From the NCBI RefSeq assembly GCF_002797755.1, contig NZ_PGFI01000014.1, positions 186,001-250,000 of the forward strand: 64,000 nucleotides of DNA, given 5' to 3'. A program made the position numbers and the translations under genes. Positions 26,966-50,222 of the stretch are shown here, piece after piece (the stretch's first letter is position 1; each line of letters starts with the position of its first letter). Origin of the DNA: Brevirhabdus pacifica. GTDB lineage: Bacteria; Pseudomonadota; Alphaproteobacteria; Rhodobacterales; Rhodobacteraceae. The notes under the pieces are model-generated. The model worked only from the letters and a program-made list of their open reading frames with translations, was not told the DNA's origin and made no database searches.

Positions 26966-28140
26966 CACTTGCCCCCCTTCTGAGCCAGTTCCACGGCCCG
27001 GCGAACGGCTTCGCCAAGGGTGTCGCGGGATTCGAACGGCAGGCGCCGATCCTTCAGCAGCCGGGTCGCCCAATCCGCGCTCTGGCCCGCAAGCCGGGCC
27101 ACGATGGGCAGTTTCCGCTCGGACCGGGAATAGGCGAAGGCCACGCCCTCGGCGACGGTGTCGCAGGCGGTCATGCCGCCGCCATGCACGTTGAGCAGGA
27201 TGATCCGCACCTTGGGATCGGCCAGCAAAAGCTCTACCCCGCGGGCGATCTGGAAGCTGGTGGCGGTGGTGCGGATATCCATGAAGTTGGCGGGGGCGCC
27301 GCCGGCGTCAATCAGCATGTCGTTGGTCGCAAGCCCCAGGCCCGCGCCGTTCACGACGACGCCGATATTGCCGTCCAGCTTAACCAGATTGATTTCGTTC
27401 TGATGGGCGACGCGTTCATCGGCGGACCAATCGTTGCGGCCGCGCAGGGCCTCGAACTCGGGGTGCCGGAAACTGGCGTTGTCGTCCAGGATGACCTTGG
27501 CATCCACCGCGATCCAGTCGCCTTGGGCGGTCAGGGCCAGCGGGTTGATCTCGGCCAGGGTCATGTCGTTGTCGACGAAGGCGCGGGCGGCGTTCTGCAC
27601 CATCTCGGCCGCGCCCTCGACAGATTTGCTGGGAAACCCGGTGTCGGCCAGGAAGGCTGCGATGGTCTCGGCCGGGGTCTTGGCGCCCTTGGGCATGGAC
27701 AGGCTGTCGACGACGCCGGGGTCCCGGCGCGCGGTCTTCTCGAAATCCACCCCGCCCGTGGTCGAGGCCAGCAGCGTCGGCTGCCCCGAAGAGGGGTCGA
27801 TCACCAGCGCGACGTAGTAATCCTCGGCAATATCGACGGCGGCCTCCACATAGACCGAGGCGACCGTCTCCCCCGCGCTGGAGGTCTGTTCGGTGACAAG
27901 GGGCTTGCCGATCATGCGCTCGGCCTCGTCGCGGACCGAGGTCGGGGTGGCCGCGAAACGCACGCCGCCGGCCAGGCCGCGCCCGCCGGCGCCGATCTGG
28001 GCCTTCACCACGTATTTCTCGGCGCGAATCTCGCGGCAGCGCTGTTCGGCCTCCTCGGCGGTGCGGGCAAGCCGGCCGTCGGGGATTCGCACGCCGTATT
28101 GCGCCAGAAGCTCTTTGGACTGATGCTCGGAAAGGATCAT
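26965..28140 (-). CDS. Succinyl-CoA synthetase beta-like subunit (divergent paralogue)
   Basis: 391 residues. An ATP-grasp nucleotide domain (KELLAQYGVRIPDG, VVKAQIGAGGRG, the Mg-binding AEINPLALT) and a C-terminal ligase domain make this the nucleotide-binding partner of the alpha-like gene. In the acid-binding region it departs from the housekeeping subunit at 37275-38468: FMDIRTTAT instead of FLDVGGSAT, and LNVHGGGMTACD instead of [11 protein letters not shown]. The substrate is therefore probably not succinate. It is the first gene of a minus-strand operon (beta-alpha-quinone reductase, perhaps nhaA), divergent from a LysR gene, with a 17-bp inverted repeat at 28184-28200 upstream. Confidence 0.75.
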   Translation of the reverse strand: MILSEHQSKELLAQYGVRIPDGRLARTAEEAEQRCREIRAEKYVVKAQIGAGGRGLAGGVRFAATPTSVRDEAERMIGKPLVTEQTSSAGETVASVYVEAAVDIAEDYYVALVIDPSSGQPTLLASTTGGVDFEKTARRDPGVVDSLSMPKGAKTPAETIAAFLADTGFPSKSVEGAAEMVQNAARAFVDNDMTLAEINPLALTAQGDWIAVDAKVILDDNASFRHPEFEALRGRNDWSADERVAHQNEINLVKLDGNIGVVVNGAGLGLATNDMLIDAGGAPANFMDIRTTATSFQIARGVELLLADPKVRIILLNVHGGGMTACDTVAEGVAFAYSRSERKLPIVARLAGQSADWATRLLKDRRLPFESRDTLGEAVRRAVELAQKGGK

Positions 28141-29327: not shown

Positions 29328-31028
29328 ATGGCACCGCTTGATGATCGCAAAGGCGTCTGGAAATCGGCCCCTGGCAAGGGCCGCAAGACCCCCAAGGGCC
29401 GCCAGGTCGAAGACCAGGCGCTGGAGGAGGTCCGCGCGCTGCTGGGCGACCGCCCCCGGCGATCCGATTTGCTGATCGAATTCCTTCACCTGATCCAGGA
29501 TCGCTATAACCACCTGTCCGAAGGGCATCTGCGGGCCCTGGCCGAGGAAATGCGCATGGCGCAGGCCGAGGTCTACGAGGTTGCCACCTTTTATGCCCAT
29601 TTCGACGTGGTGAAGGCTGGCGAGACCGCGCCGCCCGATCTGACCATCCGCGTCTGTGATTCGCTGTCCTGCGAGCTGGCGGGCGCGCAGGAGCTGATCG
29701 CCAAGCTGACCGAGCAGTATAACGGTGGCCGCGAGGTGCGCGTGCTGCGTGCCCCTTGCATGGGCCGCTGCGACACCGGCCCGGTGCTGGAATTGGGCCA
29801 CAAGCATATCGATCACGCCACACCCGAGCTGGTCGCCCGCGCGGTCGAGTCCCGCGACACCCACGCCGTGATCCCCGAATACGAGACCTTCGAGACCTAC
29901 CGCGGCGACGGCGGCTATGCCATGCTGGAAGAGCTTCGCGCAGGCTCCAGCACCCCCGACGAGGTGCAGGACATGGTGCTTGCCTCGGGCCTGCGCGGTC
30001 TGGGCGGCGCGGGCTTCCCCTCGGGGCGGAAATGGTCCTTCGTGCGCATGAACGACGGCCCCCGCTATCTGGCCGTCAACGGCGACGAGGGCGAGCCCGG
30101 CACCTTCAAGGACCGCTACTACCTTGAGCGGACGCCTCATCCCTTCCTTGAAGGCATGCTGATCGCCGCCTGGGCGGTCGAGGCCGAGAAATGCTTCATC
30201 TACATGCGCGATGAATACCCCGCCGTGCTTGAGATCCTGCGCCGCGAGATCGAGGCGCTGGAACAGGCCGGTCTGGTCTCCGAGGGATATATCGACCTGC
30301 GCCGCGGCGCCGGCGCCTATATCTGCGGCGAGGAAAGCGCGATGATCGAGTCGATCGAAGGCAAGCGCGGCCTGCCGCGTCACCGCCCGCCCTTCGTGGC
30401 GCAGGTCGGCGTCTTCGACCGTCCGACGCTGGTCCACAATGTCGAGACGCTTTACTGGGTTTCCAAGATTGTGCGCAACGGGCCCGAGATCCTGTCGTCG
30501 CATGAAAAGAACGGCCGCAAGGGGCTTCGGTCCTATTCGGTCTCCGGTCGGGTGCGCGAACCGGGTGTGCATCTGCTCCCGGCCGGGTCTACCATTCTGG
30601 ACGTGATCGAAGCCGCCGGCGGCATGCAGGACGGCCATACGTTCAAGGCCTATCAGCCGGGTGGCCCCTCGTCGGGACTGCTGCCTGCCTCGATGGATGA
30701 CATCCCGCTGGATTTCGACACGCTGCAACCCCATGGCAGCTTCATCGGATCGGCCGCCGTGGTGGTCCTGTCCCAGCACGACAGCGCCAAGGATGCCGCC
30801 CTGAACATGCTGCGGTTCTTCGAAGACGAAAGCTGCGGTCAGTGCACCCCCTGCCGCACGGGCTGCGAAAAGGCGGTCAAACTGATGGAGGCCGACACAT
30901 GGGATCAGCCCCTGCTGGAAGATCTGTGCACCGTGCTTGGCGATGCCTCGATCTGCGGTCTGGGGCAGGCGGCGCCGAACCCGATCCGTCTGACCATGAA
31001 GCATTTCCCCGAGGACATCAGCCAATGA
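29328..31028 (+). CDS. NAD-dependent formate dehydrogenase, fused gamma/beta subunit
   Basis: 566 residues. Residues about 25-180 are a NuoE/FdsG-like thioredoxin fold with a [2Fe-2S] site (VCDSLSC, then APCMGRC). Residues about 185-566 are NuoF/FdsB-like, with the FMN/NADH region (GLRGLGGAGFPSGRKW, NGDEGEPGTFKDR, GAGAYICGEESAMIES) and the [4Fe-4S] cysteines in SCGQCTPCRTGC. It passes electrons from the molybdenum subunit to NAD+. FdsG and FdsB are usually separate proteins, so this is a natural fusion. GGGAGGAG precedes the ATG. The catalytic subunit gene follows after 72 bases. Confidence 0.88.
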   Translation: MAPLDDRKGVWKSAPGKGRKTPKGRQVEDQALEEVRALLGDRPRRSDLLIEFLHLIQDRYNHLSEGHLRALAEEMRMAQAEVYEVATFYAHFDVVKAGETAPPDLTIRVCDSLSCELAGAQELIAKLTEQYNGGREVRVLRAPCMGRCDTGPVLELGHKHIDHATPELVARAVESRDTHAVIPEYETFETYRGDGGYAMLEELRAGSSTPDEVQDMVLASGLRGLGGAGFPSGRKWSFVRMNDGPRYLAVNGDEGEPGTFKDRYYLERTPHPFLEGMLIAAWAVEAEKCFIYMRDEYPAVLEILRREIEALEQAGLVSEGYIDLRRGAGAYICGEESAMIESIEGKRGLPRHRPPFVAQVGVFDRPTLVHNVETLYWVSKIVRNGPEILSSHEKNGRKGLRSYSVSGRVREPGVHLLPAGSTILDVIEAAGGMQDGHTFKAYQPGGPSSGLLPASMDDIPLDFDTLQPHGSFIGSAAVVVLSQHDSAKDAALNMLRFFEDESCGQCTPCRTGCEKAVKLMEADTWDQPLLEDLCTVLGDASICGLGQAAPNPIRLTMKHFPEDISQ

Positions 31029-31100: not shown

Positions 31101-33896
31101 ATGCTTGATGCGAACTCCACCAAAACCGTCACCTTCACCCTGAACGGCAAAGAGGTCACCGTCCCTGACGGCTGGACCATCTGGGAAGCCGCGCAAGGCC
31201 GGGGCCTTGTCATCCCGCATCTGTGCCACAAGCCCGAGCCGGGCTACCGCCCCGACGGCAACTGCCGGGCCTGCATGGTCGAGGTCGAGGGCGAGCGCAC
31301 GCTGATCGCCTCCTGCATCCGTCCCGTCTCCGAAGGCATGGTCGTCAAGACCGACAGCGAACGGGCCGAGAAATCGCGCAAGCTGGTGATGGAGCTTCTG
31401 GCCGCCGACCAGCCCAAGCGTGATCTGGCCCATGACGCCAGCTCGCATTTCTGGAAGATGGCCGAGCTGAACGGCGTCGAGGAAAGCCGCTTCCCGGCCA
31501 TCGAACACACCCGCGTGCCGCTGCTGGACGACAGCCATGTCGCCATGCGCGTCAACCTTGATGCCTGCATCCACTGCAACCTGTGCGTCCGCGCCTGCCG
31601 CGAGGTTCAGGTGAACGACGTGATCGGCATGGCCGGGCGCGGCCACGACGAAAAGATCGTCTTCGATATGGACGACCCGATGGGTGCATCGAGCTGTGTC
31701 GCCTGTGGCGAATGCGTTCAGGCCTGTCCCACCGGCGCGCTGCTGCCCGCCACCGTGGTCGACGAGAACCAGATCGGCGACACCGAGGATTACGACCGCG
31801 AGGTCAATTCCGTCTGTCCCTATTGCGGCGTCGGCTGTCAGCTGTCGTTCAAGATCAAGGACGACAAGATCAAGTACGTCGAGGGTCTGAATGGCCCCGC
31901 CAACGAAAACCGCCTGTGCGTCAAGGGCCGCTTCGGCTTTGACTACGTGGCCCACGGCCACCGCCTGACCAAGCCCATGATCCGGCGCGAGGACGCGCCC
32001 GAAAAGGGTCTGAACGTCGATCCGGCCAACCCCTGGACCCATTTCCGCGAAGCCACCTGGGAAGAGGCGCTTGATGTCGCCGCCGGCGGCATGGCGAAGA
32101 TCCGCGACGAGAAGGGCGGCAAGGGCATCGCCGGCTTCGGCTCGGCCAAGTGCTCCAACGAAGAGGCGTATCTGTTCCAGAAGCTGATCCGTCAGGGCTT
32201 TGGCCACAACAACGTCGACCACTGCACCCGTCTGTGCCACGCCTCCTCGGTGGCGGCCCTGATGGAAAACGTGGGCTCGGCCGCCGTGACCGCCACCTTC
32301 AACGAGATCGAGAACGCCGATGTCGCCATCGTCATCGGCGCCAACCCGACCGAAAACCACCCCGTCGCCGCGACATACTTCAAGCAGTTCGCCAAGCGCG
32401 GCGGCAAGCTGATCGTGATGGATCCGCGCGGACAGGGCCTGAAGCGGCACGCCTCGCACATGCTGCAATTCCGTCCGGGTGCCGATGTCTCGATGCTGAA
32501 CGCGATCATGAACGTGATCGTCGAGGAAGGTCTTTACGACCAGCAGTATATCGAGGCCTTCACCGAGAACTGGGACGCGATGAAATCCCACCTCAAGGAT
32601 TTCACCCCCGAGAAGATGGAAGAGATCTGCGGCATCCCCGCCGCCACCTTGCGCGAAGTGGCCCGCGAGTTCGCCAACGCCCGCGCCGGCATGATCTTCT
32701 GGGGCATGGGCGTCAGCCAGCACATCCACGGCACCGACAACTCGCGCTGCCTGATCAGCCTCGCGCTGATGTGCGGCCACGTCGGCCGCCCCGGCACCGG
32801 CCTGCATCCGCTACGCGGTCAGAACAACGTGCAGGGTGCCTCGGACGCCGGCATGATCCCGATGTTCCTGCCCGACTATCAAAGCGTCGAGGATGACGGC
32901 GTGCGGTCGGCCTTCAAGGACATCTGGAAGCAGGGCGATGTCGACAGCCAGCGGGGCCTGACCGTGGTCGAGATAATGGATGCGATCCACGACGGCCAGA
33001 TCTCGTCCATGTATATCTTGGGCGAAAACCCGGCCATGTCGGACCCCGACGCCGGCCACGCCCGCGACGCGCTTGCCAAGCTGGAGCATCTGGTGGTGCA
33101 GGACATCTTCCTGACCGAAACCGCCAACTATGCCGACGTGATCCTGCCCGCCAGCGCATGGGCCGAAAAGACCGGTACCGTGACCAACACCAACCGTCAG
33201 GTGCAGATGGGCCGCCCCGCCGTGGCGCCTCCGGGCGAGGCGCGCGAGGATTGGGCGATCACGGTCGATCTGGCCAAGCGGCTGGGGCTGGACTGGAGCT
33301 ACACCCACCCGCGCGAGGTCTTCGCCGAGATGAAGCTGTCGATGAAATCGCTGGAGAACATCACCTGGGACCGTCTGGAAACCGAGAACGCGGTGACATA
33401 CCCGTCGCTTTCGGCCACCGATCCGGGCCAGCCCATCGTCTTCTCCGACGGCTTCCCCCGGTCCGAAGGGCGGGCAAAGTTTACCCCCGCCAGCATCATC
33501 GCCCCCGACGAGGTGCCCGACACCGAGTTCCCGATGATCCTGACCACCGGCCGGCAGCTTGAGCATTGGCACACCGGGTCGATGACCCGCCGCGCCACGG
33601 TGCTGGACGCGGTCGAGCCCGAGGCCAACGCCTCGATGCATCCACGCACCCTGCGCCGTCTGGGCATCGAGCCGGGCGAGAAGATGACGATCGAGACGCG
33701 CCGCGGGTCGATCAGCATCATGGCCCGCGCCGACCGGGCTGTGTCCGAGGATATGGTCTTCGTGCCCTTCGCCTATGTCGAGGCCGCCGCCAACATGCTG
33801 ACCAACCCCGCGCTGGACCCCTATGGCAAGATCCCCGAGTTCAAGTTCTCGGCCTGCCGGGTTTCGAAGGCGACGCAGGAGATCGCGGCCGAGTGA
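31101..33896 (+). CDS. fdsA: Formate dehydrogenase alpha (molybdenum) subunit
   Basis: 931 residues. The N-terminus is NuoG-like with a [2Fe-2S] domain (CHKPEPGYRPDGNCRACM). Ferredoxin-type [4Fe-4S] motifs follow (CIHCNLCVRACREV, CVACGECVQACPTGA), then the cluster beside the cofactor (CPYCGVGCQL). The bis-MGD domain has the metal-binding Cys followed by His in DHCTRLCHASS, so this is a cysteine rather than selenocysteine enzyme. It oxidises formate to CO2 in the cytoplasm and, with the fused subunit upstream, reduces NAD+. No fdsC/fdhD or fdsD gene follows, unlike classical fds operons, so maturation proteins must be encoded elsewhere. It serves the formate made by the oxalate pathway genes. 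Confidence 0.9.
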   Translation: MLDANSTKTVTFTLNGKEVTVPDGWTIWEAAQGRGLVIPHLCHKPEPGYRPDGNCRACMVEVEGERTLIASCIRPVSEGMVVKTDSERAEKSRKLVMELLAADQPKRDLAHDASSHFWKMAELNGVEESRFPAIEHTRVPLLDDSHVAMRVNLDACIHCNLCVRACREVQVNDVIGMAGRGHDEKIVFDMDDPMGASSCVACGECVQACPTGALLPATVVDENQIGDTEDYDREVNSVCPYCGVGCQLSFKIKDDKIKYVEGLNGPANENRLCVKGRFGFDYVAHGHRLTKPMIRREDAPEKGLNVDPANPWTHFREATWEEALDVAAGGMAKIRDEKGGKGIAGFGSAKCSNEEAYLFQKLIRQGFGHNNVDHCTRLCHASSVAALMENVGSAAVTATFNEIENADVAIVIGANPTENHPVAATYFKQFAKRGGKLIVMDPRGQGLKRHASHMLQFRPGADVSMLNAIMNVIVEEGLYDQQYIEAFTENWDAMKSHLKDFTPEKMEEICGIPAATLREVAREFANARAGMIFWGMGVSQHIHGTDNSRCLISLALMCGHVGRPGTGLHPLRGQNNVQGASDAGMIPMFLPDYQSVEDDGVRSAFKDIWKQGDVDSQRGLTVVEIMDAIHDGQISSMYILGENPAMSDPDAGHARDALAKLEHLVVQDIFLTETANYADVILPASAWAEKTGTVTNTNRQVQMGRPAVAPPGEAREDWAITVDLAKRLGLDWSYTHPREVFAEMKLSMKSLENITWDRLETENAVTYPSLSATDPGQPIVFSDGFPRSEGRAKFTPASIIAPDEVPDTEFPMILTTGRQLEHWHTGSMTRRATVLDAVEPEANASMHPRTLRRLGIEPGEKMTIETRRGSISIMARADRAVSEDMVFVPFAYVEAAANMLTNPALDPYGKIPEFKFSACRVSKATQEIAAE

Positions 33897-36388: not shown

Positions 36389-37270
36389 TCAGCCGATGGC
36401 CTTCAGAACGGCTTCGCCCAGGCCGGCGGGGCTTTCGGCGACAACGATGCCGGCCGACTTCATGGCCTCGATCTTGTCATCCGCACCGCCTTTGCCGCCG
36501 GCGACGATGGCGCCTGCGTGGCCCATGCGGCGGCCCGGAGGGGCCGTGCGACCGGCGATGAAGCCTGCGACGGGCTTCTTGCGTCCGCGCTTGGCTTCGT
36601 CTTTCAGGAACTGGGCGGCCTCTTCTTCAGCCGAGCCGCCGATCTCGCCGATCATGATGATCGAGTGGGTGTCGTCGTCGGCCAGGAACCATTCCAGCAC
36701 GTCGATATGCTCGGTCCCCTTGATGGGGTCGCCGCCGATGCCGACACAGCTGGACTGACCCAGACCCACATCGGACGTCTGCTTGACGGCCTCGTAGGTC
36801 AGCGTGCCCGAGCGCGAGACGACGCCGACGGTGCCCTTGCGGTGGATGTGACCGGGCATGATGCCGATCTTGCATTCGCCGGGGGTGATGACGCCGGGGC
36901 AGTTGGGGCCGATCAGGATGGTGTCGGTGCCCTCAAGCGCCCGCTTGACGCGCATCATGTCCAGCACCGGGATGCCTTCGGTGATGGCGACGACCAGCGG
37001 GATCTTGGCGTCGATGGCTTCCAGGATCGAATCGGCCGCGAAGGGGGGCGGCACGTAGATCACGGTGGCGTTGGCGTCGGTCGCGGCCATGGCCTCGTGG
37101 ACCGAGTTGAAGACCGGCAGGTTCAGGTGCTGCTGGCCGCCTTTGCCGGGGGTGACGCCGCCGACCATGTTGGTGCCGTAGGCGATCGCCTGCTCGGAGT
37201 GGAAGGTCCCCTGAGAGCCGGTGATGCCCTGGCAGATGACGCGGGTGTTCTTGTCTACGAGTACGGACAT
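36389..37270 (-). CDS. sucD: Succinyl-CoA synthetase alpha subunit
   Basis: 293 residues, canonical subunit of the TCA-cycle ligase that converts succinyl-CoA, phosphate and NDP to succinate, CoA and [21 protein letters not shown] binds CoA, GPNCPG is intact, and the phospho-His is H251 in RRMGHAGAI. It lies 4 bases after sucC. Comparison with the second alpha-like subunit at 26087-26965 shows which positions have changed there. The usual mdh and sucA neighbours are not adjacent in this window. Confidence 0.95.
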
Positions 37271-37274
37271 GCTG

Positions 37275-38468
37275 TTACCCCTTCACCGCTTTGACGATCT
37301 TGCGGGCGGCGTCGCCCAGGTCGTCGGCGGCAATCACGTTCAGGCCGCTTTCGTTGATGATCTTCTTGCCTTCTTCCACGTTCGTCCCCTCGAGGCGGAC
37401 AACCAGCGGAACCTGAAGGCCCACTTCCTTGACGGCCTCGACCACGCCCTCGGCGATGACGTCACAGCGCATGATGCCGCCGAAGATGTTGACCAGGATG
37501 CCTTTGACGTTGGGATCCGAGGTGATGATCTTGAACGCCTCGGTCACCTTCTCGGTGGTGGCGGAGCCGCCCACGTCGAGGAAGTTGGCAGGCTCGGCGC
37601 CTTCCAGCTTGATGATGTCCATGGTCGACATGGCCAGGCCCGCGCCGTTGACCATGCAGCCGATCTCGCCGTCGAGGGCGATGTAGTTCAGGTCGTATTT
37701 GGAGGCGGCGAGTTCCTTGGGATCTTCCTCGGTCTCGTCGCGCAGCTGGGCGATGTCCTGGTGGCGGTAGATGGCGTTGCCGTCAAAGCCCATCTTGGCG
37801 TCGAGGCACATCAGATCACCCTTGTCGGTCACGACAAGCGGGTTGATCTCGAGCATCTCCATGTCCTTGTCGTTGAACAGCTTGTAGAGCGTGCCCATCA
37901 GCTGGACGCACTGCTTGACCTGCTGACCTTCGAGGCCGAGGGCAAAGGCGATGCGGCGGCCGTGGAAGGCCTGGTAGCCGGCGGCGGGATCGACGCTGAA
38001 CGACAGGATCTTGTCGGGGGTGGAGGCGGCGACCTCCTCGATGTCCATGCCGCCCTCGGTCGAGCAGACGAAGGCGATGCGGCTGGTCTGGCGATCCACC
38101 AGCAGCGCAAGGTAGAGTTCGCGCGCGATGCCCGAACCGTCCTCGATGTAGATGCGGTTGACCTGCTTGCCGGCGGGGCCGGTCTGGTGGGTCACCAGGG
38201 TGCGGCCCAGCATCTTCTTGGCCTCGGTGGCGGCTTCCTCGACGGATTTGGTGATGCGCACACCACCCTTCTCGCCGGCGTCAGCTTCCTTGAACGATCC
38301 CTTGCCGCGTCCGCCGGCGTGGATCTGTGCCTTGACGACCCAGACGGGTCCGTCCAGCTCGCCCGCGGCGGATTTGGCGTCTTCGGCCTTCAGTACGGGC
38401 CGACCGTCGGCGACCGGCGCGCCATAGTCGCGCAGCAGCCTCTTGGCCTGATATTCATGGATGTTCAT
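37275..38468 (-). CDS. sucC: Succinyl-CoA synthetase beta subunit
   Basis: 397 residues. It has the N-terminal ATP-grasp ([42 protein letters not shown]) and the C-terminal ligase domain with FLDVGGSAT and [11 protein letters not shown] for the carboxylate and phosphate. AAAGGGAGG precedes the ATG. It forms the housekeeping enzyme with sucD. An isochorismatase-family gene lies upstream on the same strand, 72 bases away, and sucCD may also have its own promoter in that gap. Confidence 0.95.
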
Positions 38469-38540: not shown

Positions 38541-39083
38541 TCATTTGACCAGCGGCAATATCTGGCGGAAAGCGTCGGTGCCGGCCCGGCCGAGCCACTC
38601 GAACACCACCATCTCGGTGGTGACGATGCCGGCGCCGCCGGCGCTGAGACGCTCGATGCAGGCGGTTTCGCTTTCGAGGGTGCGCGAGGCGGTGGCGTCC
38701 GAGACCACGAAGACCTCGAAACCGTCCTCCATCAGGCTGGCGGCGGTCTGGACGACGCAGATATGTGCCTCCATCCCGGCAAGCACGACCTGACGGCGGC
38801 CGCTTTCGGCCACGGCGTCGCGGATCGCCTCATCTTCCATGCAGGAGAAATGCAGCTTCTCGAAGATCGGGACACCGTCCGAAACCTTCGCGATGCCGGG
38901 CACGGTGCGGCCCAGCCCCTCGGGGTATTGTTCGGTCAGCAGGACGGGCACGTCCATCGCGCGGGCGGCGGTAATAAGGGTCGCGGCGTTGCGGATGGTG
39001 CGGGCGGGGGCCTGCATGGCGGGGACAAGCCGTTCCTGCATGTCAATGACGATCAGGATAGAGTCGGCGGCGCGGATAAGCAC
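38541..39083 (-). CDS. Isochorismatase-family cysteine hydrolase
   Basis: 180 residues, with the cysteine hydrolase triad D14 (VIDMQERL), K77 (FEKLHFSC) and C109 (AGMEAHICVVQ). The family includes isochorismatases, nicotinamidases and other amide hydrolases, and the substrate is open. Start: the GTG at 39083, preceded by GGGGAT, fits the family N-terminus; no ATG is available at a sensible position. A perfect TGGTAT-N5-ATACCA repeat lies 49 bases upstream and is shared with the oxalate GntR gene and the SCS-like operon. An amidase releasing a short acid such as oxalate from an amide is therefore conceivable, but this is only inference. Confidence 0.75.
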   Translation of the reverse strand: MLIRAADSILIVIDMQERLVPAMQAPARTIRNAATLITAARAMDVPVLLTEQYPEGLGRTVPGIAKVSDGVPIFEKLHFSCMEDEAIRDAVAESGRRQVVLAGMEAHICVVQTAASLMEDGFEVFVVSDATASRTLESETACIERLSAGGAGIVTTEMVVFEWLGRAGTDAFRQILPLVK

Positions 39084-39131
39084 GATGGATCCCCGTTTGA
39101 TTCGATGCGCACGGACGCCAGCAGCACCCGT

Positions 39132-39148
39132 GGTATTCCAGATACCAA
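39132..39148. promoter_or_regulatory. Putative GntR operator upstream of the isochorismatase gene
   Basis: A perfect inverted repeat TGGTAT-N5-ATACCA that also contains TGGTATTCCA. The same architecture occurs at 28184-28200 and, less perfectly, ahead of gntR. Confidence 0.5.
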
Positions 39149-39201
39149 CTTCGGCCCGGCGCATCAAGAGTGGTCGCGTCAGCAGCCTTTCGCAGGCGCA
39201 G

Positions 39202-39238: not shown

Positions 39239-39556
39239 GGCTGGTTGTTTAAGAGGGGTCAGGAGGCTCTCAAGGGCCTCGGCCGCCAGGCGGGGCAGGG
39301 TGCGGCAATGGGGAAGAATCGCCTGTGTGCACATCGAAATTGTCAGGTTTTTAGGGCGCAATCGGGTAGGTAAAGCGGTGTTCCGCATCAGTGACAGCCG
39401 TTCCGCTATCGGGTCCGAGGCAAGAAAATTCACCCCCATCTTCGACGATATTTTCCCCGTGATAGTGGGATTTCCGGCCCCCGCCTGCGGGTCGGGCCAG
39501 CACCGGGCTCCCCAAAGGCACCTGTGACATGTTGTCAGCGCTGGTTGTGTGGTCTA

Positions 39557-39566
39557 TGGTATGCCA
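39557..39566. promoter_or_regulatory. Putative autoregulatory operator of gntR
   Basis: TGGTATGCCA, inside a looser TGGTCT-N5-ATGCCA, 49 bases before the chosen gntR start. It matches the TGGTAnnCCA elements ahead of two other transcription units. Confidence 0.4.
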
Positions 39567-39614
39567 ACGAACCGGGATTCGGTTTCGTCAGATTTTCAGG
39601 GGCCGCCTTTTCTC

Positions 39615-40313
39615 ATGAAGCTCAAGCCGATCGCAACCAAGTTCACGCTGAAGGATCATATCTATGACCTTCTCCGCGACGCGATTGTCGAGATGAATAT
39701 CTACGAGGAAGGCGCCAACCTGCGGCTGGACGAACGCTCGCTGGCCGATCAGCTGGGCATCTCCCGCACGCCGCTGCGCGAGGCGCTGGTGCGCCTTCAG
39801 CAGGACGGTTTCGTCGACATCCAGGCCCGCAAGGGCGTGTTCGTCCTGCGCAAGACGCTGGACGAGATCCTCGAGATGATCGTCGCCTGGGCCGCGCTGG
39901 AAAGCATGGCCGCGCGACTGGCCGCCACCGACGCCTCGGACGCCGATCTGGGCAAGCTGCGCAAGCACGCGATGCGCCACTCGGCCAGCGCCGCTCGCGC
40001 CGACCTTGCCGAGTACTCGGACGCCAACATCCAGTTCCACGAGTTGATCCTGGAGATGTCGGGCTGTTCGCTTCTCAAGACGATGGCCGACGGTCTTTTC
40101 GTTCACATTCACGCCGTGCGCCGCCGCGCGCTGGAAGAAGGGGACCGCGCCACGCGCTCGGTCGTCGACCACATGAGCATCATCGAGGCGCTGGAGGCCC
40201 GCGACGCGGAGCTCGCGTCGCAACTGGTGCGCGACCACACGATGCGACTGCATGCCCACGTCCGCCGGGCATGGTCGCGGATCGAGACACAAGCCCGAAA
40301 CCGTTCAACCTAA
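39615..40313 (+). CDS. GntR-family (FCD) regulator of the oxalate cluster
   Basis: 232 residues. An N-terminal winged helix of GntR type (DHIYDLLRDAIVEMN, LDERSLADQLGISRTPLREAL) is followed by an all-helical FCD ligand domain with metal-binding His/Asp positions (DANIQFHELI, and VDHMSIIEAL near the end). FCD regulators bind organic acids, so an oxalate- or related acid-responsive regulator of the genes starting 66 bases downstream is likely. The start was set at 39615 because upstream in-frame Met codons place the TGGTATGCCA operator inside the gene. A stem-loop separates it from oxc. Confidence 0.8.
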   Translation: MKLKPIATKFTLKDHIYDLLRDAIVEMNIYEEGANLRLDERSLADQLGISRTPLREALVRLQQDGFVDIQARKGVFVLRKTLDEILEMIVAWAALESMAARLAATDASDADLGKLRKHAMRHSASAARADLAEYSDANIQFHELILEMSGCSLLKTMADGLFVHIHAVRRRALEEGDRATRSVVDHMSIIEALEARDAELASQLVRDHTMRLHAHVRRAWSRIETQARNRST

Positions 40314-40379: not shown

Positions 40380-42128
40380 ATGTCCGCAACCGTGCAAAGC
40401 CTCGACGTCGCCGCAAGTGAAGCAAACGCTCCGCAGGAGCTGACCGACGGCTTTCATCTTGTCATCGACGCCCTCAAGCTGAACGATCTGAACACGATCT
40501 ACGGCGTGCCCGGGATCCCGATCACCGACCTGGGCCGCCTTGCCCAGGCCCAGGGAATGCGCGTCATCTCCTTCCGTCACGAGCAGCACGCCGGCAACGC
40601 CGCCGCGATCGCGGGCTACCTGACCAAGAAGCCGGGGGTCTGCCTGACCGTTTCGGCGCCGGGCTTCCTGAACGGCCTGACCGCCCTGGCCAACGCCACC
40701 ACCAACTGTTTCCCGATGATCCTGATCTCGGGCTCGTCCGAGCGTGAGATCGTCGATCTCCAGCAGGGCGACTACGAGGAGATGGACCAGCTGGCGATCG
40801 CCAAGCCGCTCTGCAAGGCCGCCTTCCGGGTGCTGCACGCCGAAGACATCGGCATCGCCGTCGCCCGCGCCATCCGCGCCGCCGTCTCGGGCCGCCCGGG
40901 CGGTGTCTACCTGGACCTGCCCGCCCAGCTCTTTGCCCAGACGATGGACGAGCTTGAGGGTCAGAAATCCCTGGTCAAGGTCATCGACCCGGCCCCCGCC
41001 CAGATCCCCGGCCCCGAGGCCGTGGACCGCGCCATCGACCTTCTGAAGGGCGCCAAGAAGCCGCTCATCATCCTTGGCAAGGGCGCCGCCTATGCCCAGG
41101 CCGACGACGCGGTGCGCGAGCTGGTCGAGAAAAGCGGCATCCCCTACCTGCCCATGTCGATGGCCAAGGGCCTGCTGCCCGACACCCATCCCCAGTCCGC
41201 AGGTGCCGCCCGTTCGCTGGCCCTGAAAGAGGCCGACGTGGTGGTGATGATCGGCGCGCGCCTGAACTGGCTTCTGTCCCACGGCAAGGGCAAGACCTGG
41301 GGCGAGCCCGGCTCGAAGAAATTCATCCAGATCGACATCGAACCGCGCGAGATGGACAGCAACGTCGAGATCGCGGCACCGCTGGTCGGCGACGTGGAAT
41401 CCTGCGTCAACGCTCTGCTGGACAAGATGGGCGACGACTGGTCGGCCCCGCCCGCCGAGTGGACCGACGCGATCCGCTCCAAGGTCGAGGGCAACGTGGC
41501 CAAGATGGCCAACAAGCTTCAGAACAACAACAACCCCATGGACTTCCACGGGGCCCTGGGCGCGCTGAAGACCATCATCAAGGAGCGCCCCGATGCGATC
41601 CTGGTGAACGAAGGCGCCAACACCCTCGATTTCGCCCGCTCGATCATCGACATGTACAAGCCCCGCAAGCGGCTTGACGTGGGTACCTGGGGCATCATGG
41701 GGATCGGCATGGGCGCAGCCGTCGCCGCCGCCGTCGAGACCGGCCAGCCCGTGCTGGCCGTCGAGGGCGACAGCGCCTTCGGTTTCTCGGGCATGGAGGT
41801 GGAGACGATCTGCCGCTACGACCTGCCGGTCTGCATCGTGATCTTCAACAACAACGGGATCTACCGGGGCACCGACGTGAACCCGACAGGCGGTTCCGAT
41901 GTGGCGCCCACGGTCTTCGTGAAGAACTCGCGCTATGACCTGATGATGCAGGCCTTCGGCGGCGTCGGGGTCACGGCGACCACCCCAGACGAATTGTCGC
42001 GTGCGGTAAACGAGGCAATGGACTCGGGCAAACCCACCCTTATCAATGCGGTCATTGACGAGAACGCCGGCACTGAAAGCGGGCGCATCGGCAACCTCAA
42101 TCCGCAAAGCGTGGTGAAGAAGAAGTGA
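40380..42128 (+). CDS. oxc: Oxalyl-CoA decarboxylase
   Basis: 582 residues, thiamine-diphosphate enzyme converting oxalyl-CoA to formyl-CoA and CO2. The N-terminal [15 protein letters not shown] and the cofactor-activating Glu E68 in [12 protein letters not shown] fit the family. The C-terminal ThDP/Mg motif [14 protein letters not shown], with NNNGIYRG, closely matches the Oxalobacter enzyme. GGGAGGAAG precedes the ATG. It is the first enzyme gene of the operon. Its product formyl-CoA is used by Frc, which transfers CoA to the next oxalate, and possibly by the formyltransferase at 43512-44393. Confidence 0.93.
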
Positions 42129-42168: not shown

Positions 42169-43446
42169 ATGAAAGCCCTTGAAGGCGTCAAGATCCTTGA
42201 CTTCACCCACGTCCAGTCCGGACCGACCTGCACCCAACTTCTGGCCTGGTTCGGCGCCGACGTCATCAAGGTCGAGCGTCCCGGCGTGGGCGACGCCACC
42301 CGCAAGCAGCTGGTGGACGTCCCCGGCGCGGACAGCCTCTATTTCACCATGCTCAACCACAACAAGCGTTCGATCGAGCTGAACTCGAAGAACGAGACGG
42401 GCAAGGAGGTGCTGACGCGCCTGATCGAGGAATGCGACGTCATGGTCGAGAACTTCGCCCCCGGCGCGCTGGACCGCATGGGCTTCACCTGGGAGCGTAT
42501 CCAGGAGATCAACCCGCGCATGATCCTGGCCTCGATCAAGGGTTTCGGCCCCGGCAAGTACGAGGATTGCAAGGTCTACGAGAACGTCGCCCAATGCGCC
42601 GGCGGCTCGGCCTCGACCACCGGTTTCCGTGACGGCCCGCCCCTGGTGACCGGCGCGCAGATCGGCGACTCGGGCACCGGCCTGCACCTCTGCCTCGGGA
42701 TCGTCACCGCCCTGTTCCACCGCGAGAAGTCTGGCCGCGGCCAGAAGGTCTCGGCGGCGATGCAGGACGGCGTCATCAACCTCTGCCGGGTCAAGCTGCG
42801 CGACCAGCAGCGCCTGGAGAAGGGCCCGCTGACCGAGTATTCGCAGTTTGGCGAAGGCGTCGAGTTCGGCGATGCGACCCCGCGCGCCGGCAACGACTCG
42901 GGCGGCGGTCAGCCGGGCCGGATCCTCAAGTGCAAGGGCTGGGAAACCGATCCCAACGCCTACACCTACTTCATCACCCAGGCAGCCGTCTGGGAGCAGG
43001 TCTGCGATGTCATCGGCGAGCCCGAGTGGAAGACCAAGGAGGGCTATGCCACTCCGAAGGACCGCCTCGACAAGCTCAACGAGATCTTCGAGCGGATCGA
43101 GCAGTGGACGATGACCAAGACCAAGTTCGAGGTCATGGACATCTGCAACCCGCTGAACATCCCCGTCGGTCCGATCTTGTCGACCAAGGAGATCATCGAG
43201 GACGAGGGCCTGCGCAAGACCGGCACCATCGTTGACGTCGATCACCCCGAGCGCGGCCGCTACACCAGCGTCGGCTGCCCGATCAAGCTGAGCGACAGCC
43301 CCGTCGAGGTGACCCGGTCGCCGCTGCTGGGCGAGCATACCACCGAGATCCTGCAACAGGTTCTGGGCTACTCGGGCGAGGATCTTGACCGCGTGGTCAA
43401 GTCGGGCGCCGTCGGCGAGCCGAAAAAATCGATCGCCGCTGAATAA
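42169..43446 (+). CDS. frc: Formyl-CoA:oxalate CoA-transferase
   Basis: 425 residues, class III CoA-transferase. Similarity to Oxalobacter Frc is strong throughout: [14 protein letters not shown], the catalytic Asp D167 in [11 protein letters not shown], the Gly-rich loop [15 protein letters not shown] that closes over the active site, and the CoA-binding N-terminus. It moves CoA from formyl-CoA to oxalate, giving oxalyl-CoA and formate. CAGGAG precedes the ATG, 40 bases after oxc. Together Oxc and Frc form a catalytic CoA cycle that needs an initial CoA thioester as a primer, which leaves a possible role for the SCS-like ligase. The conserved Gly loop argues against the broader yfdE-type acetyl-CoA:oxalate transferase. 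Confidence 0.92.
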
Positions 43447-43511: not shown

Positions 43512-44393
43512 ATGCGTATTGTGGTTCATGGCCAGCAGGCCTTTGGCAAGGCTGTTCTGGAACGTCTTCTGGAACGCGGCGAGGATGTCGTCGCGGTGTG
43601 CTGCGCCCCCACCAAGGAAGGCAAGCCCGAGGATCCGCTGGTGGAATTCGCCCGCGAGAAGGGCCTGCCCGTGCATCAGCCGGCGTCCTGGAAGACCCCC
43701 GAGGCGCTGGAACTGATGAAAAGCTTCAACGCCGACATCTGCATGATGGCCTACGTGCTGCTGTTCGTCCCCGAGGAGGTGCGCGACGCCCCCACCTACG
43801 GCACGTTCCAGTATCACCCCTCGCTCTGCCCGATGCACCGTGGCCCCTCGTCGATCAACTGGCCCATCGCCATGGGATCGACCATGACCGGTCTGTCGAT
43901 CTTCTGGCCCGATGACGGCCTCGATGAAGGCCCGATCATGCTGCAGAAGACCTGCGAGATCGGCCCCGACGAGACCCTTGGCGATGTCTACTTCAAGAAG
44001 CTCTTCCCGATGGGCGTCGACGCCATGATCGAGGGGCTGGAGCTGGTGAAGGCCGGCGTCATCATCAAGCACGACCAGCGCCTCGAGGACGGGTCCTACG
44101 AAAGCTGGTTCGGCAAGGATGCCGCCACCATCGATTGGTCCAAGCCCGCGCAGGAGGTCTACAACATCATCCGCGCTGCCAACCCCGCACCGGGCGCACG
44201 CGCCACGATCAAGGACACCGAAGTCCAGATCTACGACAGCGCGCTGCTGGAAGGTGACGGAACCCCCGGTGAGGTGGTGTCCGCCACCGACGAGGGCATC
44301 ACGATGCAGGCCGACGGCGGCCGCATCCTGATCAAGCGCCTGCGTCCCGTCGGCGGCGACAAGCAGCCTGCGGGTGCCTGGTACCAGGGCTGA
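43512..44393 (+). CDS. Formyltransferase, 10-formyl-THF dehydrogenase hydrolase-domain type
   Basis: 293 residues. It aligns with the N-terminal hydrolase domain of 10-formyltetrahydrofolate dehydrogenase rather than with ordinary Met-tRNA formyltransferase: HGQQAFGKAVLERLLERG, GTFQYHPSLCPMHRGPSSIN and SIFWPDDGLDEGPIMLQK. The catalytic His (H102) and Asp (D138 in GLDEG) are conserved, while the usual Asn is Gln (Q100). The last 90 residues resemble the OB-like C-terminal subdomain. In the animal enzyme this domain hands the formyl group to a phosphopantetheine arm. Here the gene sits between frc and fhs, so formyl-CoA, itself a phosphopantetheine thioester, is an attractive donor. Formyl-CoA:THF transferase activity is inferred; hydrolysis of formyl-THF is the alternative. 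GGGAGG precedes the ATG. Confidence 0.75.
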   Translation: MRIVVHGQQAFGKAVLERLLERGEDVVAVCCAPTKEGKPEDPLVEFAREKGLPVHQPASWKTPEALELMKSFNADICMMAYVLLFVPEEVRDAPTYGTFQYHPSLCPMHRGPSSINWPIAMGSTMTGLSIFWPDDGLDEGPIMLQKTCEIGPDETLGDVYFKKLFPMGVDAMIEGLELVKAGVIIKHDQRLEDGSYESWFGKDAATIDWSKPAQEVYNIIRAANPAPGARATIKDTEVQIYDSALLEGDGTPGEVVSATDEGITMQADGGRILIKRLRPVGGDKQPAGAWYQG

Positions 44394-46170: not shown

Positions 46171-47028
46171 GTGATCCGCAAGATTCTGGTACCGGTTCGA
46201 GGCGACGGGAAGGGCGACAACGTCCTTGCCCACGCCGCAGCCCTGGCCCACAGGTTCAAGGCCCATATCGAGGTGACCCACTGTCGCCCACGGCCCGAGG
46301 ATCTGATCCCCTACGGGGTTCCGATCCCCGACGCCCTGCGTCGGCAGCTGGTCCAGAACACCTATGCTCTTGCGGACCAGGAAGAGCAGGGTCTCAAGGA
46401 CGAGGTTCATGCGCTTGCGCAGAAGCTCGGCCTTGACGACACCGGCCAGAACATCGGCGAGCGTGCGACCGTCTCCTTCGTCGAAGAGGTCGGCCGCCAG
46501 CTGGACGTCATCAAGCGCCACGGCCGGCTGGCAGACGTGATCTGCGTCGCCAAGCCGGACCGTGACCGCAACCTGGGCACGAACACGCTGAAGGCGGCGC
46601 TGTTCCACTCGGGCCGGCCGGTGCTGATGTGCCCGCCGGTGGAGACCCCGCCGACCGAGCTGGGCAAGGTGGTGACCATCGCCTGGAACGGTTCGTCCGA
46701 GGCCGCGCGCGCCCTTTCCGAGGGCATGCGAATCATCTGCAGCGCCGACCGAATCGGCATCCTGAGCACCGGCAAGGACGCCGGTCCGGGCACCTCGGCA
46801 GAGGATCTGGTGGCATACCTTCGTCTACATGGTGTGACCCCGGAACTCGTCACGTTCGAGGCGTCCCGCTCCATCGGACAGGATTTGCTGTCTCAAAGCG
46901 CGATATTCGGCGCTGATGTAATGATTATGGGGGCTTATGGCGACAGTCACGAGCGCGAAACCCTCTTCGGAGGCAACACGCAGACGGTGATTGATCGCGG
47001 CAATATGCCCGTGTGGATGAGCCACTAG
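46171..47028 (+). CDS. Universal stress protein family, two-domain
   Basis: 285 residues with two UspA-like halves. The first (IRKILVPVRGDGKGDNVLAHA) starts with the usual strand but lacks a complete nucleotide motif. The second ends with MIMGAYGDSHERETLFGGNT, the G-x2-G-x9-G-(S/T)-type ATP loop variant (GAYGDSHERETLFGGNT). It starts with GTG, 11 bases after fhs, behind GAGGAG, so it is co-transcribed with the C1 genes. It may help the cell with acid or formate stress. That role is inferred from context only. Confidence 0.75.
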   Translation: MIRKILVPVRGDGKGDNVLAHAAALAHRFKAHIEVTHCRPRPEDLIPYGVPIPDALRRQLVQNTYALADQEEQGLKDEVHALAQKLGLDDTGQNIGERATVSFVEEVGRQLDVIKRHGRLADVICVAKPDRDRNLGTNTLKAALFHSGRPVLMCPPVETPPTELGKVVTIAWNGSSEAARALSEGMRIICSADRIGILSTGKDAGPGTSAEDLVAYLRLHGVTPELVTFEASRSIGQDLLSQSAIFGADVMIMGAYGDSHERETLFGGNTQTVIDRGNMPVWMSH

Positions 47029-47162: not shown

Positions 47163-48125
47163 ATGTCCATTACCAAACGGACTTTCATTGCACTGGCTGG
47201 CGCAACCGCGCTGACCGCAACCTTTGCCAACTCGGCAGCGGCCTTCGAGCCCACGAAGCCGATCGACTTCGTCATCATGGCCGGTGCCGGCGGTGGCGCG
47301 GACCAGATCGCCCGCTTCATCCAGTCGGTCGCCGAGAAGAAGAAGCTGACGGTTCGTCCGCTCGTCCCGAACAACAAGGGCGGCGGCTCCGGTGCAGAGG
47401 CTCTGATCGCGCTGAAGGGCGCCTCGGATCCCGACCACACCATTCTGGTGACCCTGAACTCGTTCTTCACCACCCCGCTGCGCCAGGAAAACCTGGGCAT
47501 CGACGTGACCACCTTCACCCCCGTCGCCATGATGGGCGTCGACCCCTTCGTGCTGTGGGTCCACAAGGACAGCGGCATCACCGACTTCGACCAGTGGGTC
47601 GCGAAGGTGAAAGAGGGCGGCTACGTCATGGGCGGCACGGGTAAAGGTCAGGAAGACAGCCTGGTCATCACCTGGCTCGAGCAGAACTTCGACCTCGACA
47701 TCAAGTACATCCCCTACAAAGGGGGCGGTGCCGTCGCCAAGGACCTGGCCGGTCAGCAGATCATGGCCTCGGTCAACAACCCTGCCGAGACCAAGGGCTT
47801 CTACGCCTCGGGTGACGTGGTTCCCCTGCTGGCCTTCTCGGACGAGCGCATGCCGGCATTCCCGGATGTTCCGACCGTCAAGGAACTTGGCAAGGACTTC
47901 AGCTACTACAACCAGCGGGCCGTCGTTGGCGCGCCGGGCATGTCTGACGACGCTGCCAAGTACTACCAGGACCTGTTCCAGACCATCTACGACACCGAGG
48001 AATGGCAGGGCTACATGGAGTCCGAGAGCCTTTCGCCCCTCTGGATGAACCCCGAGGAGCAGAAGGAATACTGGAACACCCAGATCGAAAATCACAAGGA
48101 ACTGCTCGCGAAGATGGGCGAATAA
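47163..48125 (+). CDS. Tripartite tricarboxylate transporter substrate-binding protein
   Basis: 320 residues, with a Sec signal peptide (FIALAGATALTATFANSAAA) and a Bug/TctC-type periplasmic binding fold starting FEPTKPIDFVIMAGAGGGADQI. TctC proteins bind carboxylates in the periplasm through a conserved Gly-rich loop (GAGGGAD) and hand them to TctAB. The location directly after the oxalate catabolic genes suggests the ligand is oxalate or a related small acid. TTGGGAGGAATACC precedes the ATG, the same leader sequence as for oxc. The upstream gap (47029-47162) is AT-rich and may hold an extra promoter. Confidence 0.85.
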   Translation: MSITKRTFIALAGATALTATFANSAAAFEPTKPIDFVIMAGAGGGADQIARFIQSVAEKKKLTVRPLVPNNKGGGSGAEALIALKGASDPDHTILVTLNSFFTTPLRQENLGIDVTTFTPVAMMGVDPFVLWVHKDSGITDFDQWVAKVKEGGYVMGGTGKGQEDSLVITWLEQNFDLDIKYIPYKGGGAVAKDLAGQQIMASVNNPAETKGFYASGDVVPLLAFSDERMPAFPDVPTVKELGKDFSYYNQRAVVGAPGMSDDAAKYYQDLFQTIYDTEEWQGYMESESLSPLWMNPEEQKEYWNTQIENHKELLAKMGE

Positions 48126-48160: not shown

Positions 48161-48664
48161 ATGCGGCTTGGAGAATTGGTAACGGCAGGTGTCCTGGCCG
48201 TCCTGTCCATTTACATGATGTGGAAGAGTACCGAACTGGACATCGGGTACATCAGCGGTGAAGGACCGGGGGGCGGGGCATGGCCGTTCTGGCTCTCGGC
48301 CATCATGCTGATCTGTACCGTGATGATTTTCTACAAAGGGGTAAGGCGGCTTTCGCCGCCTTCCCAATCCGACGAACCCGTTCTCGATGCCGAGGGGCGC
48401 AAGATGCTGCTCCAGGTCTTCGGGGGGATCTTCGTCTTTGTCGCGCTGGTCGGGATCTTCTCGATGTATGTCGCGATGGGAATGTTTCTCTTCTATTACC
48501 TTTGGTTCCTCGGCCGACATACGCTGCGCCTGTCTCTGACGCTTACCGTCGTGACGCCCGTAATCTTCTTCTTCTTCTTCGAGGCGCTGATGCGCATCAC
48601 CCTGCCGAAGGGGATGGAGTTCATGGAGCCGATCTACAACTACCTGAACACCATCATCTACTGA
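48161..48664 (+). CDS. Tripartite tricarboxylate transporter small membrane subunit (TctB)
   Basis: 167 residues with four membrane segments, the TctB design: a first helix (about 5-24), GEGPGGGAWPFWLSAIML as the second, and two more helices at about 95-120 and 125-145. It forms the membrane complex with the large subunit. It lies 35 bases after the binding-protein gene and 37 before tctA-like. Confidence 0.82.
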   Translation: MRLGELVTAGVLAVLSIYMMWKSTELDIGYISGEGPGGGAWPFWLSAIMLICTVMIFYKGVRRLSPPSQSDEPVLDAEGRKMLLQVFGGIFVFVALVGIFSMYVAMGMFLFYYLWFLGRHTLRLSLTLTVVTPVIFFFFFEALMRITLPKGMEFMEPIYNYLNTIIY

Positions 48665-48701: not shown

Positions 48702-50222
48702 ATGGAAATCCTTGCACTACTGACAAGTGGCCTGCTGGAGGCACTGGAACCGCTGAACCTGCTCCTCATCGTGATTGGTGTCACGCTGGGACTGTTCATC
48801 GGGGCGATGCCCGGCCTCGGTTCGGTCAACGGGGTGGCGATCCTGCTGCCCATCACCTTCCTGGTGCCGCCGGCATCGGCGATCATCTTCCTGGCGGCGA
48901 TCTACTACGGCGCCATGTACGGCGGGGCGATCAGCTCGATCACCCTGGGCATCCCCGGCGCATCGACCGCGGTTGCCACCACCTTCGACGGGCGACCACT
49001 GGCGATGAAGGGCCGGGCAAGCCTGGCACTGGTCACCGCGGCCATCGCCTCCTTCGTGGGCGGCACCGTCTCGATCATCCTCTTCACCGCCTTCGCACCG
49101 ATGCTGGCATCGGTCGCGCTGAGCTTCGGCAACCCCGAGATCTTCGCGCTGATGCTGCTGGCCTTCGCCACCTTCGTCGGCCTTGGCGGTGACGACATCC
49201 CCAAGACCATCCTGTCGATCTGCTTGGGCCTCGTCTTTGCGGCCGTCGGCTTCGACGAGATCTCGGGCGAACCGCGTCTGGTGTTCTTCGGCATCCCCGG
49301 CTTCCTGCACGGGATCAACTTCCTGGTGCTGGCGATCGGTGTCTACGGTATCGGCGAGATGCTTTGGACCATCGACACGACCCGCGGCAAGATCACCACG
49401 ACCGAGGCGAAGATGAGCGTCAAGGGCGTGTTCGCGGACGCCAAGGAAGGCATCACCCAAGGCTGGCGCGGCACTTCGATCGGGTCGTTCCTGGGCTTCT
49501 TCGTGGGGATCCTTCCCGCGGCTGGCGCGACCCCCGGTTCGCTGATGTCCTACGGCGTGGCCAAGCTGACCTCGCGCGATCCCGGCTCCTACGGCAAGGG
49601 CAACCCCGACGGCGTGGCCGCCCCCGAGGCTGCCAACAACTCGGCATCGACCGGCTCCATGCTGCCGATGCTGACGCTGGGCATCCCCGGTTCGCCCACC
49701 ACGGCGATCCTGCTGGGCGGCATGGTGATCTGGGGCCTGACCCCGGGCCCGCGCCTCTTCACGGACGAGCCTGCCTTCGTCTGGGGCCTGATCGGTTCGT
49801 TCTACGTGTCGAACTTCTTCGCCCTGGTCATCAACCTGTCCTTCATCCCGCTGTTCATCTGGATGCTGCGGATGCCCTTCACGATCCTTGCACCGATGAT
49901 CTTCGTGCTTTCGATCGTGGGCGGGTATGCGGCGACCAACGACATGCACGATGTCTGGCTGATGATCGCCTTCGGTCTTGGCGCCTTCTTCCTGCGCAAG
50001 TTCGACTACCCGCTGGCGCCTGCGGTGCTGGCCATCGTTCTCGGCCCCATCGCCGAGCCGACGCTGCGCCAGTCGCTGCTGCTGTCCTCGGGTGATCCGT
50101 CGATCTTCTTCACCCGGCCGATCGCAGGCCCGATCACGGTGATCGCGATCATCCTGATCCTGCTGCCGCTCTTCGGCATGATCCGCGACCGGGTCCGCCG
50201 CCGCGAGAAGCCGGCGACCTGA
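48702..50222 (+). CDS. Tripartite tricarboxylate transporter large membrane subunit (TctA)
   Basis: 506 residues, about eleven to twelve membrane segments, with the repeated TctA signature seen in GLFIGAMPGLGSVNGVAILL (near 26-45) and in GFFVGILPAAGATPGSLMSY. It is the ion-coupled pore of the importer and completes the TctCBA set. A terminator 45 bases downstream closes the oxalate operon, which supports transport and catabolism being one unit. Confidence 0.9.
   Translation: MEILALLTSGLLEALEPLNLLLIVIGVTLGLFIGAMPGLGSVNGVAILLPITFLVPPASAIIFLAAIYYGAMYGGAISSITLGIPGASTAVATTFDGRPLAMKGRASLALVTAAIASFVGGTVSIILFTAFAPMLASVALSFGNPEIFALMLLAFATFVGLGGDDIPKTILSICLGLVFAAVGFDEISGEPRLVFFGIPGFLHGINFLVLAIGVYGIGEMLWTIDTTRGKITTTEAKMSVKGVFADAKEGITQGWRGTSIGSFLGFFVGILPAAGATPGSLMSYGVAKLTSRDPGSYGKGNPDGVAAPEAANNSASTGSMLPMLTLGIPGSPTTAILLGGMVIWGLTPGPRLFTDEPAFVWGLIGSFYVSNFFALVINLSFIPLFIWMLRMPFTILAPMIFVLSIVGGYAATNDMHDVWLMIAFGLGAFFLRKFDYPLAPAVLAIVLGPIAEPTLRQSLLLSSGDPSIFFTRPIAGPITVIAIILILLPLFGMIRDRVRRREKPAT

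Follow-up and report, generated by a model that had tools for sequence, protein, structure and literature searches.

A stand-alone formyltransferase-like protein linked to formyl-CoA genes in an oxalate operon of Brevirhabdus pacifica: a candidate formyl-CoA:tetrahydrofolate formyltransferase

Why should an oxalate operon encode a folate-type formyltransferase? The question is raised by a gene of Brevirhabdus pacifica located between frc and fhs, which encode formyl-CoA:oxalate CoA-transferase (Frc) and formate-tetrahydrofolate (THF) ligase (Fhs), respectively. A first-pass annotation, made from the sequence alone, had proposed that the product of this gene (referred to here, together with its family, as FTL) transfers the formyl group of formyl-CoA, formed by oxalyl-CoA decarboxylase (Oxc), to THF and thereby saves the ATP used by Fhs. 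Features of the locus are summarized in Table 1. Their positions refer to the window, i.e. the whole 64,000-nucleotide stretch analyzed (contig NZ_PGFI01000014.1, positions 186,001 to 250,000). The gene order is GntR, oxc, frc, FTL, fhs, usp, tctC, tctB and tctA.

Table 1. Predicted genes of the oxalate locus and its flanks in the window
Feature	Position	Strand	Evidence
Second, divergent SucCD-like pair	26087-28140	-
NuoE/NuoF-like subunit, adjacent to the formate dehydrogenase alpha gene; same locus, different operon from FTL	29328-31028	+	PF01512, PF01257
Formate dehydrogenase alpha subunit	31101-33896	+	TIGR01591 749 bits, cut-off 666
sucCD, canonical succinate-CoA ligase	36389-38468	-
Isochorismatase-like hydrolase	38541-39167	-	YcaC-type match, below cut-off
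GntR/FCD-type regulator, first gene of the operon	39549-40313	+	PF07729, PF00392
oxc, oxalyl-CoA decarboxylase	40380-42128	+	TIGR03254 1020 bits, cut-off 739
frc, formyl-CoA:oxalate CoA-transferase	42169-43446	+	TIGR03253 706 bits, cut-off 504
FTL, stand-alone FDH-hydrolase-domain-like formyltransferase (293 aa, ATG start)	43512-44393	+	Pfam, NCBIfam, solved relatives, AF2 model
fhs, formate-THF ligase; homologue fused to FTL in L066 and L077	44492-46159	+	NF010030 940 bits, cut-off 652
Universal stress protein (usp)	46171-47028	+	PF00582
tctC, tripartite tricarboxylate-type transporter, binding protein	47163-48125	+	PF03401
tctB, transporter small membrane protein	48161-48664	+	PF07331
tctA, transporter large membrane protein	48702-50222	+	PF01970

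Family, fold and predicted active site of FTL

The FTL protein matches the Pfam domains Formyl_trans_N (88.9 bits) and Formyl_trans_C (66.1 bits) and no other domain. Its best solved relatives are hydrolase domains of 10-formyl-THF dehydrogenase (FDH, ALDH1L1; 4qpd, E = 4.4e-55), followed by solved Fmt proteins (best 5uai, E = 2.1e-35) and, more weakly, HypX (6j1h, E = 6.1e-11). By sequence it is far nearer to FDH than to HypX: it shares 37% aa identity with FDH (107/287), 33% with the Fmt of its own genome (93/286), whose two-domain architecture it has, and approximately 21% with the N-domain of HypX. Unlike FDH, FTL carries neither a phosphopantetheine carrier domain nor an aldehyde-dehydrogenase domain and sits in an oxalate operon; unlike HypX, it has no C-terminal enoyl-CoA hydratase-like decarbonylase domain. 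Together with the NCBIfam matches, these results uphold the first-pass description of the ORF as a stand-alone homologue of the FDH hydrolase domain.

Two better known members of the superfamily were considered and rejected. An ordinary Fmt is ruled out by the TIGR00460 score of 128.5 bits, below the cut-off of 201.5, and by a separate true Fmt (288.2 bits) encoded elsewhere in the genome. The PurU model TIGR00655 is absent among the five NCBIfam matches of FTL at E ≤ 1e-3, and a search of the B. pacifica genome for PurU at E ≤ 1e-60 gave no match.

An AF2 model of FTL (pLDDT 89) has the shared Formyl_trans fold and resembles FDH (4qpd, Z 27.2, rmsd 5.7, 286 residues aligned), Fmt (1fmt, Z 26.5), ArnA (Z 24.8) and the formyl-THF-binding fold of HypX (6j1e, Z 19.0). 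The Z scores of the predicted fold cannot tell FDH from Fmt (27.2 vs 26.5), so that the modelled fold does not establish function.

FTL residues H102, S104, D138 and Y196 correspond to H106, S108, D142 and Y200 of FDH, which agrees with the catalytic His and Asp named in the first-pass annotation. The replacement of Asn by Gln also noted there was found at Gln100; this position is Ile104 in FDH and Asn in the Fmt of the same genome, the catalytic Asn of the N-formyltransferase motif. Conservation was assessed in an alignment of 57 Frc-linked and 18 unlinked FTL members with zebrafish FDH and the B. pacifica Fmt; the 75 members comprise 42 from the own locus and 80 close loci (see below) and 33 from class-sample loci. 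All 75 have the FDH residue at the positions of His106, Ser108, Asp142, Arg114 and Tyr200. Phe89 is conserved in 55 of the 57 linked vs 9 of the 18 unlinked proteins, and the Ile104 position is Gln in 54 linked (Cys in the other three) and 17 unlinked members. The unlinked proteins carry most of the family-specific residues. Active-site roles of FDH residues H106, R114, D142, Y200 and F89 are described in PMC4388273. With the fold, folate pocket and His/Ser/Asp triad of FDH, folate binding by FTL is well supported as a prediction. The motif F99-Q100-Y101-H102-P103-S104 is invariant in all 42 aligned close relatives; this and the 80 relatives (the best of 374) sharing 69-86% identity indicate that FTL is not a chance ORF.

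Linkage of FTL to genes of formyl-CoA metabolism

A protein search of genome contigs yielded 374 FTL relatives, of which the best 80 were kept. Relatives occur in records labelled SAR116, Rhodobacteraceae, Kiloniellaceae, Hyphomicrobiaceae and Devosia, and also Gammaproteobacteria. The first-pass annotation had tied its proposal to the oxalate genes, and the homologues do not lie mostly away from them: in 78 of the best 80, an Frc gene of the same orientation lies no more than 1 kb upstream (spacing of 0-1000 bp in 77, an overlap of 12 bp in L076). In L055 and L077, Frc and FTL are separated by a short ORF, GIY-YIG-like as judged by eye. The two loci that deviate, L043 and L056, are sisters nested within the linked clade of the FTL tree, which is in effect unrooted (both outgroup branches exceed 5 changes per column); 704 bp of upstream sequence is available for L056, and both genomes encode an Frc over cut-off at another site.

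Upstream of FTL, a true Oxc is encoded at 61 of the 80 loci and a 2-hydroxyacyl-CoA lyase (HACL)-like TPP enzyme at 13. Four contigs end too early for typing (L024, L048, L057 and L072), with the end of an Oxc gene at the edge of L024 and a second Frc at that of L048; L043 and L056 make up the rest. Fhs follows within 600 bp downstream at 56 loci, is missing at 12 although more than 700 bp are available, and could not be sought on the remaining 12, too short, contigs. In L077 (8180-10816) and L066 (10001-12664) a single unbroken ORF encodes both FTL and Fhs, with both parts over the Pfam cut-offs, and in L071 the FTL ORF runs into the start of Fhs, where the contig ends. These three loci come from metagenome-assembled genomes; assembly error behind both complete fusions is possible, but unlikely. 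In L011 (8664-11107) Frc lies in two frames, and behind FTL only short fragments from the two ends of Fhs (N- and C-terminal) are found. FdhA and SucC are also broken on this contig of doubtful sequence quality, and an intact Fhs gene is present elsewhere in the genome.

The HACL-like enzymes (L045, L046, L047, L049, L050, L060, L069, L075 and L078-L082; e.g. L069:6927-8660) share 23-26% identity with the window Oxc, whereas the Frc proteins encoded beside them are 75-86% identical to the window Frc. For two of these enzymes the top NCBIfam match was the acetolactate synthase model NF004516 (443-450 bits, below the cut-off of 587), followed by the 2-hydroxyacyl-CoA lyase model NF058623 (353-360 bits, below the cut-off of 600). 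The best solved match is the 2-hydroxyacyl-CoA lyase 7pt3 (E = 5e-79), which we take to be the Actinomycetospora enzyme. A lyase of such a type yields formyl-CoA (PMC7176365). HACL-like enzymes were detected in 12 of the 18 Oxc-less FTL genomes of the class sample (see below) vs none of 15 FTL-negative control genomes, and in three of the eight genomes that lack FTL but have Frc or Oxc. Mapped onto the FTL tree, the OXC label requires 11 changes and the HACL label 10.

Because the adjoining Frc is so well conserved, the HACL-like enzyme could be another oxalyl-CoA decarboxylase or else a lyase, with formyl-CoA as the predicted product either way. Since Oxc is repeatedly swapped for this enzyme (13 of the 80 loci and the 12 Oxc-less genomes), oxalate was judged unlikely as the common factor behind the linkage, and we infer that this factor is probably formyl-CoA. 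If the HACL-like enzyme is a second oxalyl-CoA decarboxylase, the argument against oxalate falls and oxalate becomes possible.

Co-occurrence was analyzed in a class sample of 385 alphaproteobacterial genomes, B. pacifica included, with the FTL profile A1 (E ≤ 1e-60). FTL was found in 34 genomes, and Frc and Oxc scored over their cut-offs in 35 and 20, respectively. FTL and Frc occur together in 28 genomes (Fisher p = 3e-30, a value inflated by kinship), FTL alone in six (G071, G281, G288, G300, G359 and G366) and Frc alone in seven (G007, G060, G224, G239, G277, G283 and G361). At the level of families (approximately 171, an assumption based on the highest family label encountered), both genes occur in 16, FTL only in two and Frc only in five (p = 2e-16), and 16 of the 18 families with FTL include a genome having both. 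A weaker Frc-like match is present in five of the six FTL-only genomes; in G071 it is a 228-residue piece adjoining a HACL-like gene. FTL accompanies Oxc in 16 of the 20 Oxc genomes. As four Oxc genomes and seven of the 35 Frc genomes are devoid of FTL, it is dispensable for these pathways in general.

FTL adjoins Frc in 18 of the 34 FTL genomes of this sample. Of the 16 others, ten hold an Frc over cut-off elsewhere. Neighbours of the unlinked genes, listed for 10 of the 16 loci and named by eye, include acyl-CoA dehydrogenase, helicase and pterin dehydratase-like ORFs; at L143, FTL adjoins Fhs. The idea of an FTL role strictly bound to formyl-CoA is challenged chiefly by these unlinked members. 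Neither Oxc nor a HACL-like enzyme was found in six of the 34 genomes (G281, G288, G300, G312, G359 and G366); G312 is 79% complete and its Frc lies at a contig end.

In a phylum sample of 398 genomes, profile A1 matched ten, eight of them not encountered in the searches above. The order Oxc-Frc-FTL was seen at L148 and L149, Oxc-Frc-Frc-FTL at L151, L152, L168 and L169, and Frc-FTL at L153, while FTL is unlinked at L150. The four loci with tandem Frc paralogues, which are approximately 62% and 75% identical to the window Frc, belong to the 100% complete genomes G734, G519, G569 and G655. These are all the FTL-holding genomes of family f216, outside the class, in this sample. No match to Fhs (E ≤ 1e-50) was found in these four genomes or in G720, which carries L150, and PurU was found in all five. 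Since FTL is kept in genomes where no Fhs was found, it does not depend on Fhs. Among 27 class-sample and locus genomes, the Fhs search gave no match in three: G306, G071 and G391, the last of which carries L040.

Formyl exchange and competing explanations

FDH passes a formyl group from folate to a phosphopantetheine thiol, and CoA bears the same thiol. By analogy with this chemistry, we infer both the reaction and CoA as the second substrate: FTL is probably a reversible formyl-CoA:THF N10-formyltransferase, an assignment in which we have moderate confidence. (Formyl-)THF would be held in the FDH-type pocket and its formyl group exchanged with the phosphopantetheine thiol of CoA via His102, Ser104 and Asp138, much as the FDH hydrolase domain acts on its own phosphopantetheine arm. 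In this way, FTL would connect two pools: formyl-CoA, which Oxc or the HACL-like enzyme supplies and Frc consumes, and the one-carbon units of folate. Together with Fhs it would also link formyl-CoA to formate and ATP. The tie of FTL to formyl-CoA genes is real, and the support consists of fold, folate-site residues, linkage, co-occurrence, fusions and occurrence without Fhs. Formyl exchange is the simplest reading because FTL is stand-alone, tied to Frc and formyl-CoA-type TPP enzymes, and sometimes fused to a formyl-THF synthetase.

A close precedent exists in HypX: a review (PMC12134894, citing Schulz 2020) reports that its N-domain hands the formyl group of formyl-THF over to CoA. An earlier paper (PMC6802093) gives a structural basis and states that direct results were lacking in 2019. 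Exchange between folate and CoA would be common to both proteins, although HypX binds CoA constitutively and its net direction is opposite to that proposed in the first-pass annotation. FTL would belong with formyltransferases of the FDH/HypX kind, and the reverse half of its presumed reaction is already reported for HypX. The first-pass annotation knew of no described bridge from oxalyl-CoA to folate and did not mention HypX; a search of open-licence PMC literature likewise turned up no paper naming a formyl-CoA:THF formyltransferase of oxalate metabolism.

The direction of transfer requires separate consideration. Per oxalyl-CoA, Oxc makes one formyl-CoA, and each Frc turnover uses one as CoA donor, a need that the first-pass annotation overlooked. 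A net draw of formyl-CoA to folate would therefore starve Frc, and another means of oxalate activation would be needed, which weakens the case for a large ATP-saving assimilatory route. The proposed substrate pair is favoured by the linkage and co-occurrence with Frc, the Oxc swaps, the FTL-Fhs fusions and the HypX precedent, but the one-way direction proposed with it is not, the opposite being as compatible. Assimilation (formyl-CoA to formyl-THF) and priming (formate and ATP to formyl-THF to formyl-CoA) share our moderate confidence in formyl exchange about equally.

It is possible, though doubtful, that FTL serves priming only, a sub-case of formyl exchange in which Fhs and FTL act as a two-step ATP-driven formyl-CoA synthetase that would start and replenish the Oxc-Frc cycle. 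Frc's need for formyl-CoA fits this, as does the fusion of the two successive enzymes in L066 and L077; transfer from formyl-CoA to THF, however, is probably the downhill direction, and the four complete Fhs-less genomes keep FTL, where formyl-THF would need serine. How the cycle is primed is an acknowledged difficulty, and in E. coli YfdE (acetyl-CoA:oxalate CoA-transferase) was proposed as the answer (PMC3720670); its role would possibly be equivalent, but it is a class III CoA-transferase of unrelated fold and mechanism. The YfdE model NF008511 is over cut-off in none of 42 FTL genomes, but also in none of eight Frc/Oxc genomes without FTL and so does not discriminate; matches below cut-off occur in 37 of the 50, reaching 436 of the required 522 bits. 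HypX is reported to work in the formyl-THF to CoA direction. Tentatively, FTL and Fhs, sometimes as one polypeptide, might constitute a folate-channelled reversible formyl-CoA synthetase operating via bound formyl-THF, which would prime and buffer the Oxc-Frc cycle and other TPP-lyase pathways yielding formyl-CoA.

The closest solved relatives of FTL being hydrolase domains, a PurU-like, thiol-stimulated 10-formyl-THF hydrolase relieving the folate pool at high formate has to be weighed. Thiol-assisted hydrolysis was proposed for the isolated FDH domain (PMC4388273), and 37 of the 42 FTL genomes have no PurU match at E ≤ 1e-60. We consider this role unlikely, because a formyl-THF hydrolase fused to a formyl-THF synthetase would be a futile ATPase; moreover, the Fhs-less G519, G569, G655 and G734 possess PurU yet keep FTL beside oxc-frc, and the tie to Frc would be left unexplained. 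Co-occurrence with Frc is unaccounted for if FTL formylates an amine, sugar or protein from formyl-THF as a mere consumer of one-carbon units in the operon. Several characterised Formyl_trans proteins are indeed N-formyltransferases (Fmt, ArnA and FdtF), but no amine- or sugar-making gene is among the operon genes identified and the Asn of Fmt is replaced by Gln in nearly all linked proteins, making such an acceptor quite improbable. A formyl-CoA thioesterase or folate-dependent regulator of Oxc/Frc would fit the tie to formyl-CoA genes, but is very improbable given the preserved FDH-type folate pocket and catalytic triad; thioester hydrolysis would, in addition, be expected to break the Frc cycle.

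Should FTL indeed catalyse this exchange, it would form, to our knowledge, the first direct bridge between oxalate-derived formyl-CoA and the folate one-carbon pool. It would explain the start of the Oxc-Frc cycle, or the assimilation of oxalate carbon without glyoxylate, and would offer engineers of formate and formyl-CoA pathways a formyl-CoA/formyl-THF exchange enzyme.

Several flanking genes recur at other loci. A universal stress protein is encoded within 4 kb downstream of FTL at 24 of the 48 close loci with room. The canonical sucCD genes lie upstream of the operon on the opposite strand, separated from it by the isochorismatase-like gene, and a canonical-type sucC was found at 18 of the 80 close loci. 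The divergent SucCD-like pair, whose SucC is 36% identical to the other window copy, adjoins formate dehydrogenase and a gene identified by eye as LysR-type; it could encode a CoA ligase for a C1 or C2 acid. Resembling pairs occur near FTL in the unlinked L043 and at a few linked loci.
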